From contig NZ_BJDZ01000024.1 of assembly GCF_005405405.1 (NCBI RefSeq), forward strand, positions 1-45,519: a stretch of DNA of 45,519 nt, in the 5' to 3' direction. Shown here piece by piece: positions 41,995 through 45,519 of this stretch (its first letter is position 1; each line of letters opens with the position of its first letter). The notes below the pieces were generated by a model, which made no database searches, was not told the DNA's origin, and saw only the letters and a program-made list of their open reading frames with translations. This DNA comes from Lactiplantibacillus plajomi (GTDB taxonomy: Bacteria > Bacillota > Bacilli > Lactobacillales > Lactobacillaceae). A program made the translations under genes and the position numbers.

Positions 41995-42972
41995 TTGGAA
42001 CGTTTCGGAAGAAAATCATGGGTCAATATTCGGGGACTTGCAATGCTTAGAGTCATTTTGATTCATATTACTGGACCATTTATGTATCAGGGAAGTGCCT
42101 TTAACAAGGATTTATTTTATCTATGTGTTAATTAACTGTCACGATTCGCGGTTCCAATATTTTTTATAGCGTCTGGCTACGGATTAACGGTAAGTAATAG
42201 CTATTCAGGCGATTTAATTTGTTTTTATAAAAAAAGATTAAAATTAATTCCTGCATACCTTGTTTGGACAATGATTTATTTTATTCAAACTAAAGCTAAG
42301 TTATCAGTGCCAACTGTATTGAGTGGTGTATTCTTAGGTAGTTCGCGATACCATATGTACTTCATAACTGTTTTGATCTTTTTTTGTTTAATTTATCCAT
42401 TTGTGTATATGTGGTTTAGCCAAACTCTTGGTTTTGTTATTGCAGCTGTAATAAGCGTAATTGGACAAGTGGTATTTTTAGCCGGATCAACTTTTGAAGT
42501 TCATTACTTTTTAAACTTCCTAGTATATTTTGCATTGGGCATCTATCTTGCGAAGCGAGATAGAATGAAAAAACTGGTACGACATGCTAATGTCAGTGTT
42601 GCTATTGGGATATTGGTAGTGTTAAGTACGTCTATCTATTTTAAATATTTCACTGATAGAAGCCAGTCGCTTGTAACAACTAGTATGCGACCAGCCGTCT
42701 TTTTGCTCTCTATAGGCATGGTAGCTTTTGCAATGAAACATCTAAGTAAGCCAACCAAATTTTTGAGTTTAGTAGATCGCCAATCTCTGAATATTTACTA
42801 CGTTCACCCTATAATGCTTATGGTGATTCAAAAATTATTGCAAGAAAGTCCACTTCCAAGCCTTCTTTTGTTTATTATTATAACGTCATTTGTAATATGT
42901 GCTTCAATAATTTTTGCTATTCCTTACAGTTGTACTATTAAAAAAATCCCAATACTAAGAAATGTTTTCTAA
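41995..42972 (+). pseudogene. Acyltransferase (acyltransferase-3 family) with an in-frame stop
   Basis: From TTG 41995 (behind TAGGAG) the frame reads LERFGRKSWVNIRGLAMLRVILIHI, has TAA at 42133-42135 (codon 47), then continues without shift as LSRFAVPIFFIASGYGLTV and ten or so membrane helices to 42972, giving 325 codons in total. The context VN-stop-LSRFAVPIFFIASG strongly suggests a CAA to TAA change of a glutamine. Acyltransferase-3 proteins acetylate exopolysaccharides. Restart within the gene (for example ATG 42271) would lack the catalytic His region, so the protein is probably non-functional. Confidence 0.85.
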
Positions 42973-43146
42973 GGAAAGTACACGTGAAAGACTCTCGTTT
43001 TGTAATATAAGTTAGGATTACGCCAACCTTTTAATTTTTATATCAATTGTAGGTTCTATTTATCTGAAATACAGAGAAATAGGCCTTTTTCTACGTTTTG
43101 TCAATAGGAATGCTGTTAAATCGATGTTTTATGACGAGGAGTTTAG

Positions 43147-43190
43147 GGCCTAGGTTCCGGAACGAAAAACATCGTTCCGGAACCTAGGCC
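43147..43190. repeat. Perfect 19-bp inverted repeat
   Basis: GGCCTAGGTTCCGGAACGA (43147-43165) and its exact complement (43172-43190) flank a six-base loop AAAACA. It is GC-rich in AT-rich surroundings. T-rich sequence follows only after a gap (43197-43206). It may be a terminator, or a foreign palindromic element. The region 42973-43284 contains no gene. Confidence 0.9.
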
Positions 43191-43284
43191 TTATTACTAT
43201 TTTTTGAGTGATTTAGACCCAACTAAATAAGCCTTGGAGGTATCAAATTTTTTTCAAGGCTGGTATGATAAATTATAGCGAATG

Positions 43285-44511
43285 TTACTTCGATTGAGGG
43301 CTTAGCTCATAGGAGTAAGGTTGATTCGTTTTTATCAGGTATAGGATTGTTTTAATCAGGCGATCCATTTGACGGACGATGAGTTTCTTCTTTGAAGAAG
43401 AGGCTTCTCGTCTTTTTTCGTATGCATCGCGAATATGATTATTACCCATTTTAGGATTAAGCATAAGAATGACCGTCCAGTATAGAATCCGACGTGCGTG
43501 AGGATTACCATGTTTTGTAATATGCCTTGCTGATTGATGGTCACCAGAGTCAATTTCCGTTGTATCAAGACTAACATAGCTATTCAACTGTTGACGAGTA
43601 TCGAACCGCCGGATGTCACCTAATTCGCTAATTAGCCGAATGGCGGTACTGCCACCGATGCCAGGAATTGTTTGAAGAAGCGTAAACTCCGGCAAGGATT
43701 TACCTAAGGTCATCATGCGCACGACCTGCTGGTCCTGCGCTGCTTCTAGGGCAAGAACTTGCTCCGCCAAAGCTTCCATTTGCCGTGTGTTATCCGAAGT
43801 AACGGGTACCGCATCACCATTTTGAGCGGCTAGTTTCCATAGCTTGCGTGCGGCATCGTGAATACGTCTAGCGCCCATCCCTTTGAAATGTGCTGCCGAT
43901 ATACGTGCTTCTAACGCGTTAAGGTCGCCAATCTCACGAACGATTTGTGCATGTGGAAAGAGCGTTAGGAGTTCCCAAGCTAGCTTTGTATCGAAGTTAA
44001 AGCTACCCTTGGAGGCCCCAAATGACGCAAATACAAGCTGTAAGACACGATGAGCTCGATTGCGGGCCCGTTTCTTGTCTTCATTGAGTTGGTCGTAGTA
44101 ACGGTTCATATCTGTTAATTCACGATAGATGGGATTCTGTTTATAAGCTAGAAGATATGGTTCCAGCTGTTCGGTAAACTCGGTAATCGCCAGTCGACGT
44201 GCGTCTCGTTGATCGTTTTTTCTCAGTCGTGAACCAGTGGCGATACGATTTTTAGCTGCTAGTGGGTTTAAAATGTGATAATTCAAACCTGCTTGCTGAA
44301 GAAAATATTCTAAACGCCGGGAGTAAACACCAGTTGCTTCAAAAACGATTTCCGCTTTTTCATTGAACTGAAACACGGCGTGTTTCAGCTCATTAAACCC
44401 CAATAAATCCAAAGAGATGGTTAGTTCTTTGACGACTACTAAATCAGTCACTACCGCAACGTTAGCTTTGTTCTTACTGACATCGATTCCAATTATTGTT
44501 CGCATCATCAT
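43285..44511 (-). CDS. IS110-family transposase (DEDD recombinase)
   Basis: A 408-residue recombinase. The N-terminal RuvC-like DEDD domain starts MRTIIGIDVSKNKANVAVV (D10), with IVFEATGVYSRRLEYFL (E) and RKNDQRDARRLAITEF (D...D). The C-terminal Tnp_20 part has LLQTIPGIGGSTAIRLISELGD, a helix-hairpin-helix, and DSGDHQSARHITKHGNPHARRIL with the catalytic serine and the K-x-GN motif. The frame is intact. IS110 enzymes insert DNA guided by a bridge RNA encoded upstream of the gene; such a structure is seen at 44530-44730. The first ATG of three in a row is used; AGG lies just before. Confidence 0.95.
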   Translation of the reverse strand: MMMRTIIGIDVSKNKANVAVVTDLVVVKELTISLDLLGFNELKHAVFQFNEKAEIVFEATGVYSRRLEYFLQQAGLNYHILNPLAAKNRIATGSRLRKNDQRDARRLAITEFTEQLEPYLLAYKQNPIYRELTDMNRYYDQLNEDKKRARNRAHRVLQLVFASFGASKGSFNFDTKLAWELLTLFPHAQIVREIGDLNALEARISAAHFKGMGARRIHDAARKLWKLAAQNGDAVPVTSDNTRQMEALAEQVLALEAAQDQQVVRMMTLGKSLPEFTLLQTIPGIGGSTAIRLISELGDIRRFDTRQQLNSYVSLDTTEIDSGDHQSARHITKHGNPHARRILYWTVILMLNPKMGNNHIRDAYEKRREASSSKKKLIVRQMDRLIKTILYLIKTNQPYSYELSPQSK

Positions 44512-44529
44512 ATACCTGTCTTTCTGAAG

Positions 44530-44730
44530 TCTTCACGTCAGTTTTAGTAATCTCGTTTTCAAAACACGGCTTCAAGAGCCCAAATACTTTGATCAAATTG
44601 ACTAAAACCAGTGAAGCGGCCATTTTTTAATACGGTCTCAAGGACCCAAAAGCCGTACGGCCTATCTTCACTACCACTATAAAGTAATAGAGGCATAGGA
44701 GCACCCCGTCGGGTAACTTCTATGCCTCTA
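44530..44730 (-). ncRNA. Candidate bridge RNA of the IS110 element
   Basis: Read on the minus strand: a 5' hairpin with ten pairs (44729-44720 with 44698-44689), then stem-loop 1 closed by AGTGAAG/CTTCACT (44672-44666 with 44616-44610) and GGCC/GGCC, and stem-loop 2 closed by ACTAAAAC/GTTTTAGT (44608-44601 with 44548-44541). Each loop holds a small hairpin in 19-nt near-copies (44632-44650, 44566-44584): GGTC-TCAAG-GACC and GGCT-TCAAG-AGCC on the plus strand. The four differences form two compensatory pairs. This two-loop design is that of IS110 bridge RNAs, whose loops bind target and donor DNA. Exact ends unknown. Confidence 0.65.
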
Positions 44731-44759
44731 AGCTTAGTATTTTTTTATGGATAAATTGA

Positions 44760-45151: not shown

Positions 45152-45420
45152 ATGGATAAAATTGCATGTGTCATTGTGACGTATAATCGGAAAAGGTTAA
45201 TGGTCGAAGCGTTAAATAGCGTTTTGACTCAAGAGCAGGCACCCGAGTACGTTTTTGTGATTGATAACGCCTCGACGGACGGCGTAGCGGAATTGTTACA
45301 CGATCGGTTTGCCTTTGATCAGCAGCACCTCGTTTATTATCGTAGTCCGAAAAATTTAGGTGGGTCGGCCGGATTTGCGCAGGGGATTAAGCTAGCGCTC
45401 AGAACCGATTGCAACTGGGG
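45152..45420 (+). pseudogene. Family 2 glycosyltransferase gene, 5' part, interrupted by an insertion sequence
   Basis: About 90 residues of a GT2 enzyme related to GlfT2-type galactofuranosyl/rhamnosyl transferases: CVIVTYNRKRLMVEALNSVL, VFVIDNASTDG and RSPKNLGGSAGFAQGIK, then LRTDCNW. Intact relatives continue with W-x-MDDD at this point. Here the frame turns to unrelated sequence after TGG (about 45420) and stops at 45454. The GC content is higher than in the island, so it may belong to a different, older locus. The remainder presumably lies beyond the inserted element. Confidence 0.85.
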
Positions 45421-45519
45421 TGGGCCTAGAATAAAAAGTGTACAAGTTAAATAGAGACTCTGATTTAGTATAATTAAGGAAGTAAATTGGAGGATCAAAT
45501 AATGACGAAGCACAGTTAT
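45420..45519 (+). mobile_element. Left end of an IS3-family-like element, truncated by window edge
   Basis: Beginning near TGGGCCTAGAATAAAAAGTG, there is a TATAAT box (about 45468-45473), a TTGGAGGATC site and an ATG at 45502. The jump from conserved GT sequence to this cassette marks the insertion point. The terminus starts with TG, as IS3 elements do. Confidence 0.65.
45502..45519 (+). CDS. Start of an IS3-family OrfA (partial)
   Basis: Only MTKHSY is in the window. This start is common in OrfA proteins of the IS150 group of IS3 elements (MTK-x-SYE-x-KL). The site TTGGAGG lies 9 bases upstream. The call depends on six residues and the context of an insertion. Confidence 0.5.

Follow-up and report, generated by a model that had tools for sequence, protein, structure and literature searches.

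A predicted bridge RNA with left-right exchanged guides in an IS110-family element of Lactiplantibacillus plajomi

The stretch of DNA analysed here (the window) is the 45,519 nucleotides of contig NZ_BJDZ01000024.1, positions 1 to 45,519, from Lactiplantibacillus plajomi assembly GCF_005405405.1. It holds one full element of the IS110 family, and the region considered in this report, which is predicted to encode a bridge RNA, lies within the left end of that element. Bridge RNAs can be programmed to guide the insertion of large pieces of DNA. The transposase (recombinase) of the element has a DEDD and a C-terminal domain; both PF01548 (E 2.7e-22) and PF02371 (E 1.2e-19) are present, as expected of an IS110 family member, and in a comparison with solved structures the protein resembles the recombinase chains of IS621 and ISCro4. 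The element ends were placed from five copies with differing flanks in the relative G279, from Lactiplantibacillus plasmid copies and from relatives. The left end starts at about 44739, after an A-tract, and the right end finishes at 43091, with an A-tract beyond it. The RNA is contained in the left end (228 nt); the right end (194 nt) has no match to the covariance model described below.

Positions 43091 to 44739, minus strand: the element without its A-tract core, ends by copy comparison (extra A-tract bases at 44740-44746 and 43086-43090).
Positions 43285 to 44511, minus strand: IS110-family transposase, 408 amino acids (aa).

A preliminary description of this DNA had noted two 19-nt near-copies on the plus strand, ACGGCTTCAAGAGCCCAAA at 44566-44584 and ACGGTCTCAAGGACCCAAA at 44632-44650, and had read them as hairpins with compensatory differences. 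The sequence bears this out, the four differences amounting to two compensated pairs. Plus-strand positions 44500-44740 fold more stably than all 200 dinucleotide shuffles (z -4.5); folding of the minus strand was done without shuffles. A covariance model of the two-loop core, built from 21 relatives with the window sequence included, matches minus-strand positions 44536-44674 of the window (138 bits, E 1e-31), and there is no other match below E 1 on either strand of the 45.5 kb. By this model the RNA reads along the minus strand, in the same sense as the transposase. The fold first described, a 5' hairpin plus two stem-loops, stands once its strand is corrected; read from the minus strand, the 5' hairpin is 44690-44731, which lies at the far end of the interval first described. 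The parts of the predicted RNA are as follows.

Positions 44688 to 44731, minus strand: 5' stem-loop (SL1), with 16 of 18 pairs changed on both sides; terminator-like on the plus strand too.
Positions 44536 to 44676, minus strand: two-loop core of the predicted bridge RNA, the interval behind the covariance model.
Positions 44659 to 44672, minus strand: outer stem of loop 1 (the candidate target loop), 5' strand; structural covariation.
Positions 44634 to 44646, minus strand: terminal hairpin of loop 1, with three of four pairs changed on both sides.
Positions 44610 to 44621, minus strand: outer stem of loop 1, 3' strand; structural covariation.
Positions 44601 to 44608, minus strand: outer stem of loop 2 (the candidate donor loop), 5' strand.
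Positions 44568 to 44580, minus strand: terminal hairpin of loop 2, with two of three counted pairs changed on both sides.
Positions 44541 to 44548, minus strand: outer stem of loop 2, 3' strand (5' against 3' strand, permutation z 9.9, 44 types).

Run on the window and 37 further loci, the model found all 24 of the clade loci absent from it (E 2.1e-4 or better) and none of the 12 loci that the transposase tree places outside the clade, IS621 among those 12; L227, unplaced by the tree, was matched at E 0.004. A second run matched 30 of 30 clade loci, five of them shared with the first. RNAalifold on 21 aligned left ends predicted 36 pairs, 25 of which were changed on both sides. A stated structure of 35 pairs, comprising the 5' stem-loop, the loop-1 stem and both terminal hairpins, has 93.5% of its cells paired, compared with 73.3% when shuffled and at most 50.4% when slid. 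Of these 35 pairs, 25 are changed on both sides; the covariation score is 0.595, while shuffling gives 0.231 and sliding 0.147 at most. The stems are thus conserved in homologues, a check that the preliminary description had proposed. In loci L127 and L133 an internal deletion has brought loop 1, cut down to its 5' half, up against the 3' half of loop 2, and a 57-nt model match is left.

Each internal loop presents two segments, which we call guides.

Positions 44648 to 44658, minus strand: 5' guide of loop 1, GTACGGCTTTT, which corresponds in reverse complement to the right target flank.
Positions 44622 to 44633, minus strand: 3' guide of loop 1, GTATTAAAAAAT, sense of the left target flank plus A-tract.
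Positions 44582 to 44591, minus strand: 5' guide of loop 2, CAAAGTATTT, in which AGTATTT matches the left end AAATACT in reverse complement.
Positions 44555 to 44564, minus strand: 3' guide of loop 2, TTTTGAAAAC, a candidate for matching (TA)GAAAA, the right end together with the core.

Junctions were read for 45 element types at 81 loci (the main set), and the four loop segments were scored against the two flanks and the two element ends, with guides permuted among types. The reverse complement of the loop 1 5' guide follows the right flank (41 types, 75 sites, z 11.5-12.3), the loop 1 3' guide follows the left flank (44 types, 77 sites, z 8.5-9.8), and the reverse complement of the loop 2 5' guide follows the left end (43 types, z 12.4), each with 0 of 20,000 permutations as high. 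When permutation is confined to the inside of clades, the respective z values are 9.4, 7.4 and 8.8. The loop 2 5' guide tracks variants of the left end one by one: AAATACT goes with AGTATTT, AACATTCT with AGAATGTT, AACAGACT with AGTCTGTT, and AACGGACT with AGTCCGTT. By covariation of three of the four guides, then, the region appears to have the trait of a bridge RNA, two internal loops that match target and donor. Target- and donor-binding loops like those of IS110 bridge RNAs had been proposed in the preliminary description, and the covariation of guides with DNA supports the proposal. The comparison of loop bases with DNA that it recommended comes out in favour for insertion sites (loop 1) and for the left end (loop 2), and in part for the window's own match.

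Families outside the main set were scored with guide windows at fixed offsets from the model match and with junctions located by pattern. The swapped order again covaries, with z 8.4 (17 families, 26 sites) and z 5.8 (16 families, 25 sites), 0 of 20,000 permutations in each case, compared with z -0.6 and -0.3 for the canonical order. This outside set (L072, L076, L080, L081, L086, L135, L141, L144, L146 and L147; G766, by L187 only; G858, G848, G903, G825, L171, L172, L174 and L176) is partly non-blind: G858, G825 and ISSep2 (L171) had been inspected by eye earlier, and L080 is close to L079 of the main set. The doubtful junctions left of L199 and L203 and right of L135 were retained, and L127 and L133, with their deleted RNA, were left out. 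Near-identical plasmid copies (L006-L008, L010) and contig-end fragments were left out of the counts. In the main set, flanks were also matched over the left end free of preset guide windows. At 41 of 72 sites the reverse complement of the right flank has its best match on the 5' side of loop 1 (mean 11 and maximum 16 in 30 permutations), and at 53 of 71 the left flank has its best match on the 3' side (permuted mean 30.5, maximum 39).

A second element in the same genome (L166, C26:37366-38547) belongs to the same clade, has a transposase 30% identical to that of the window and a target that is not an A-tract. It fits the swap: the loop 1 5' guide matches the right flank at 10 of 11 bases (reverse complement of the guide, ACTGATGTTGA; right flank, ACTGGTGTTGA), and TGTCAAAC is common to its guide and to the left flank plus first left-end base. 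The exact place of L166 in the tree is unsure because its branch is long. A handshake position is also possible: in the window the last T of the loop 1 3' guide matches the first left-end base, and the two bases agree in 32 of 44 types of the main set.

These results suggest, with a probability of about 0.86, that this region codes for an IS110-family element's bridge RNA and that the guides of this RNA are swapped left to right relative to IS621. The structure itself is real and on the minus strand; that it is a bridge RNA of the IS110 kind is very probable. As we picture it, the RNA would comprise a 5' stem-loop, one loop that binds the target and one that binds the donor, would be transcribed from a promoter at the circle junction and assemble with the recombinase into a ribonucleoprotein, and would guide the recombinase in joining the circle of the element to a short A-tract; seen from the other strand, this tract is often an intrinsic terminator's T-tract. 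The two loop 1 guides both run from the outside to the core, as in IS621, the 5' guide reading the target half beside the right end of the element and the 3' guide the half beside the left end. In loop 2 the 5' guide would read the left end. Should the 3' guide read the right end, target halves read by 5' guides would still be joined to donor halves read by 3' guides, again as in IS621.

A hairpin pointing toward the A/T-tract (folding z below -2) is present in the right flank at 41 of 75 sites and in the left flank at 6 of 77, so the target is often the T-tract of an intrinsic terminator whose hairpin lies on the right. The insertion in the window has such a neighbour.

Positions 43051 to 43086, plus strand: hairpin of an interrupted terminator (folding z -3.7), downstream of the open reading frame (ORF) 42271-42972; its T-tract is at 43086-43090.

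Judged from the junctions, insertion into a terminator T-tract would spare coding sequence and leave about five T beside the interrupted hairpin. No title or abstract opening among the literature matches listed describes terminator targeting by IS110 elements, in a coverage that lacks most subscription papers and all of bioRxiv.

Joining the right end, core and left end, as in a circle, creates a predicted promoter.

Positions 43091 to 43104, minus strand: right end TTGACAAAACGTAG, with the predicted -35 box of the circle-junction promoter.

Across types, the joined sequence reads TTGACW, 17 nt, TAANNT in 34 of 41, the spacing being computed with an assumed core of 4 nt, and the predicted start lies near the 5' stem-loop. 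Because TTGAC belonged to the search pattern for the right end, its presence is partly selected; the spacing is unaffected. The window family has a spacing of 15 nt (14 in one plasmid copy) with four A, which two extra left-end A residues would bring to 17. For G695 and own2 the spacing was returned as "None", which reflects a variant left end and the fixed 12-nt cut of the right end, not absence of a promoter.

Between the second loop and the transposase lies one more segment that covaries with the RNA.

Positions 44525 to 44536, minus strand: third strand, GTGAAGACTTCA, complementary to both strands of the loop-1 stem.

The tail was defined as the sequence between loop 2 and the transposase start, the loop-2 3' strand excluded; G384, whose RNA is incomplete, was omitted from the stem and tail analyses. 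Against the loop-1 5' strand, the tail of 43 types gives a helix score of 7.19 versus 5.77 when permuted (z 8.2; inside clades 5.7, 0 of 10,000), and the 3' strand gives z 4.5 (3.8 inside clades, 2 of 10,000). The score with the 5' strand is at least 6 in 36 of the 43 types (the permuted rate of such scores was not counted) and only 5 in the window, where the third strand forms 5 bp with the 5' strand and 6 bp with the 3' strand. In 26 of the 36 types the helix overlaps the loop-1 stem by at least four bases, so that the two compete; in the others they could coexist. When whole leaders are folded thermodynamically, the pairings of the tail prevail in 22 of 43 types, the window not among them. 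In the window, CTTCAC (minus strand, 44616-44611) has two possible GTGAAG partners, at 44671-44666 and at 44536-44531, a choice in which the preliminary description had seen a switch between two folds. The covarying third strand lends that idea some support, though little in the window, for which the predicted ensemble leans to the loop-1 stem: in the full-length fold the pairing with 44671-44666 dominates, with 10.0 expected pairs versus 1.7.

It is conceivable, and we hold it only tentatively, that one RNA has two competing folds, a third strand immediately upstream of the ribosome-binding site of the transposase copying both strands of the loop-1 stem. On a read-through mRNA the third strand could dismantle the target loop, leaving each transcript either guide or transposase message; or the paired helices may mark the site where the bridge RNA is cut from the mRNA. 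The third strand may be a switch, a site of processing or a helix that closes the structure. The seekRNA paper, in the text available from it (PMC11187229), leaves open how guide RNA separates from transposase message, and a true switch would address that separation.

Other accounts of the region have to be weighed against a bridge RNA with exchanged guides. An ordinary bridge RNA of the IS621 type would share the two-loop architecture and the location in the left end, its 5' guides corresponding to the left flank and right end and its 3' guides to the reverse complements of the right flank and left end. Those pairings do not covary: in this clade the IS621 order gives z -1.4 to 0.2 for the target and, for the donor, -0.8 and -0.1; permuted inside clades, the target stands at -0.9 and 0.8 and the donor at 0.2 and 0.5. 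With the outside families equally flat, we rejected the canonical order and consider this account quite improbable. In an IS621 control from an E. coli plasmid, read in the same frame, the left flank ATCAGGCCT resembles the 5' guide ATCGGGCCT and the right flank CTACGCAG resembles the 3' guide TTGCGTAG, so that IS621 is canonical here, as it is in the available text of its papers (PMC11208160, PMC11208158). The hairpins might instead be a leader that controls the transposase mRNA, by attenuation or at the ribosome-binding site, and no recombination guide. Covariation of the third strand with the loop-1 stem would suit such a leader, and 5'-UTR (untranslated region) control is reported in the abstract on ISPpu9 (PMC8450116); a leader would not account for the way loop bases covary with insertion flanks, which vary from copy to copy and from family to family. 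We judge a leader alone quite unlikely, and the two roles may coexist.

Two further accounts dispense with a minus-strand guide. The match between loop 2 and the left end holds at the DNA level as well, nearly all targets share the A-tract, and in some families a subterminal inverted repeat of up to 11 nt connects both ends; a DNA repeat bound by the recombinase, together with a protein preference for terminator A-tracts, might then suffice and the RNA be uninvolved. We think this very unlikely, because the match in the predicted loop extends past the A-tract to bases that are specific to each element and vary among relatives (inside-clade permutation), and because the RNA stems are maintained through compensatory change. 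Least credible is a functional RNA from the plus strand, antisense to the transposase like Asr9 of ISPpu9. The plus strand also folds well, but the core stands at the 3' ends of both loop-1 guides, as in IS621, only in a minus-strand RNA, the predicted junction promoter reads the minus strand, and the model matches the window on that strand alone; a plus-strand RNA was rejected on guide polarity and on the strand of the covariance-model match.

Several observations nevertheless weigh against a bridge RNA with exchanged guides. The right end is nearly invariant among types, so the loop 2 3' guide gives no power to detect covariation. The window's own guides fit their own site only in part, with scores of 7 (left) and 6 (right) beside family means of 6.4 and 6.5, and some copies match poorly: G314/L112 and G104 score 3 on the right flank, and G648 (3) and G653 (3-5) on the left. 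Guides of the main set were delimited by hand, and the A-tract core brings a low-complexity share into every match, for which permutation controls, albeit among related families. The order of the window-free best matches (T before B) is as expected in 31 of 39 cases, against a permuted mean of 30 and maximum of 36; it is uninformative, since A-tract bias alone yields 30 of 39 under permutation. On the terminator side, 34 of 75 right flanks fall short of z -2 as hairpins. Moreover, the genome carries a single full copy of the window element, the flank of the insertion is present only in its own genome among 21 genomes of the genus, which gives no empty site, and for plasmid copy L005 no element-free record bridging both flanks was found among the 40 of 180 matches listed.

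Other features of the element and its surroundings may be recorded here. Right ends of the window family (window, G279, G172, G071, plasmid copies) contain a long near-perfect hairpin, at 43147-43190 in the window, whose stem letters differ strongly between elements (GGCCTAGGTTCCGGAACGA, compared with GGCATTGGTTCG in plasmid copies) while complementarity is kept. Solo palindromes resembling the left end plus 5' stem-loop occur at L002 1478-1552 (C4:52752-52826 of the same genome) and at L031, L032, L034 and L038, mostly with an A-tract before and a T-tract after; the one in the same genome lies between convergent ORFs, like a bidirectional terminator. Toward the window end, a putative glycosyltransferase-like ORF (45152-45454) is truncated near 45415, apparently by another insertion. 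An Rfam scan of the window returned a cspA thermoregulator RNA (RF01766, 17041-17420, 86 bits) and a tRNA only, with no curated family at the bridge-RNA region.

The RNA appears to pick the landing site of an element of lactic acid bacteria, in an arrangement common to a large family in related bacteria. The swapped order supplies a predictive code for dozens of Gram-positive elements, and the clade also provides a natural choice of site, terminator T-tracts. In the transposase tree, 45 rows with swapped order fall in one clade of 46 (support 100/100), the 46th being G848, a family scored among the outside families; IS621 and the Shine-Dalgarno groups stand outside. Transposases of the clade are 399-447 aa long in 43 of the 46 rows and 357-370 aa in three.

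Among the elements outside is a group with upstream RNA that inserts at anti-Shine-Dalgarno sequence. There, a hand-picked 5' segment favours the left over the right flank in 12 of 12 copies of G1069, G1080 and G398, so that the group looks canonical-like in a comparison made without permutation; G1163 (three copies), whose junctions are placed too imprecisely, is outside this count. Distant IS110 elements with upstream RNA (L207-L210, L239-L242, L247-L250) are inserted into the Shine-Dalgarno complement (CCTCC or CTTCC) and have a 5' guide that looks canonical-like. Others (L215-L226, L231-L238, L243-L246, L251-L261), with transposases of 425-455 aa, have a long non-coding region downstream and Shine-Dalgarno-like targets, AAGGAG at the left junction and GGGAGG at the right.

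Of described elements, ISSep2 of Staphylococcus belongs to the same clade: the covariance model matches it at E 3e-13, its transposase is 29% identical, and its loop 1 5' guide suits its right flank in the swapped sense by eye, as well as being scored within the outside set; no guide RNA of ISSep2 is mentioned among the literature matches listed. ISPpu9 likewise has a transposase gene of the IS110 family and, before it, a long, structured 5'-UTR to which control of translation is ascribed; that control involves the small RNAs Asr9 and Ssr9; its abstract (PMC8450116) states no competition between a bridge-RNA stem and the leader. No title or abstract opening among the literature matches listed describes swapped order in a clade with upstream RNA; the coverage lacks most subscription papers and all of bioRxiv, and priority is not established.

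With the IS1111 group the element shares its guide order. In the available text of the seekRNA paper (PMC11187229), the top-strand match lies 5' of the bottom-strand match in IS1111 seekRNAs (ISEc11, ISPa11, ISKpn4, ISPst6) and the opposite holds for ISEc21, of the IS110 type. Here the guide complementary to the top strand is 5' of the one complementary to the bottom strand, as in the IS1111 group, and the IS110-group order, bottom before top, is found in the IS621 control and not in this clade. According to the same text, IS1111 elements usually have the non-coding RNA region downstream of the gene (with a few exceptions), transposases of 330-350 aa and long subterminal inverted repeats. The window element differs from them in its long upstream non-coding region with the RNA, an IS110-group trait, with no covariance-model match downstream of the gene, in its transposase of 408 aa, and in a repeat that is weak (6 of 8 nt). 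In 7 of 41 types the repeat is 11 nt long with a single mismatch, and its mean score is 5.8 versus 3.6 in shuffles, where the IS110-group rule is none or only 2-3 bp. In this clade, then, the RNA is upstream and its guides take the order of IS1111, so that location and order can be separated, and the origin of the IS110 and IS1111 groups becomes testable. Competing folds, were they real, would sit in a clade whose exchanged guides make it a third arrangement beside IS621 and IS1111; we regard such folds as possible rather than probable.

Like IS621, the element has its RNA upstream of the recombinase gene in the left end, a 5' stem-loop followed by two guide loops, the core at the 3' ends of the guides, a junction promoter (predicted here) and possibly a handshake base after the core. 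It differs in an A-tract core where IS621 has CT, in a bias to terminators where IS621 has REP targets, and in a recombinase of 408 rather than 326 aa, IS621 itself lying outside the swapped clade. In loop 1, and in the one loop 2 guide open to testing, left and right have changed places, and the covariation of guides with DNA supports the view that this exchange sets the predicted bridge RNA apart from that of IS621.
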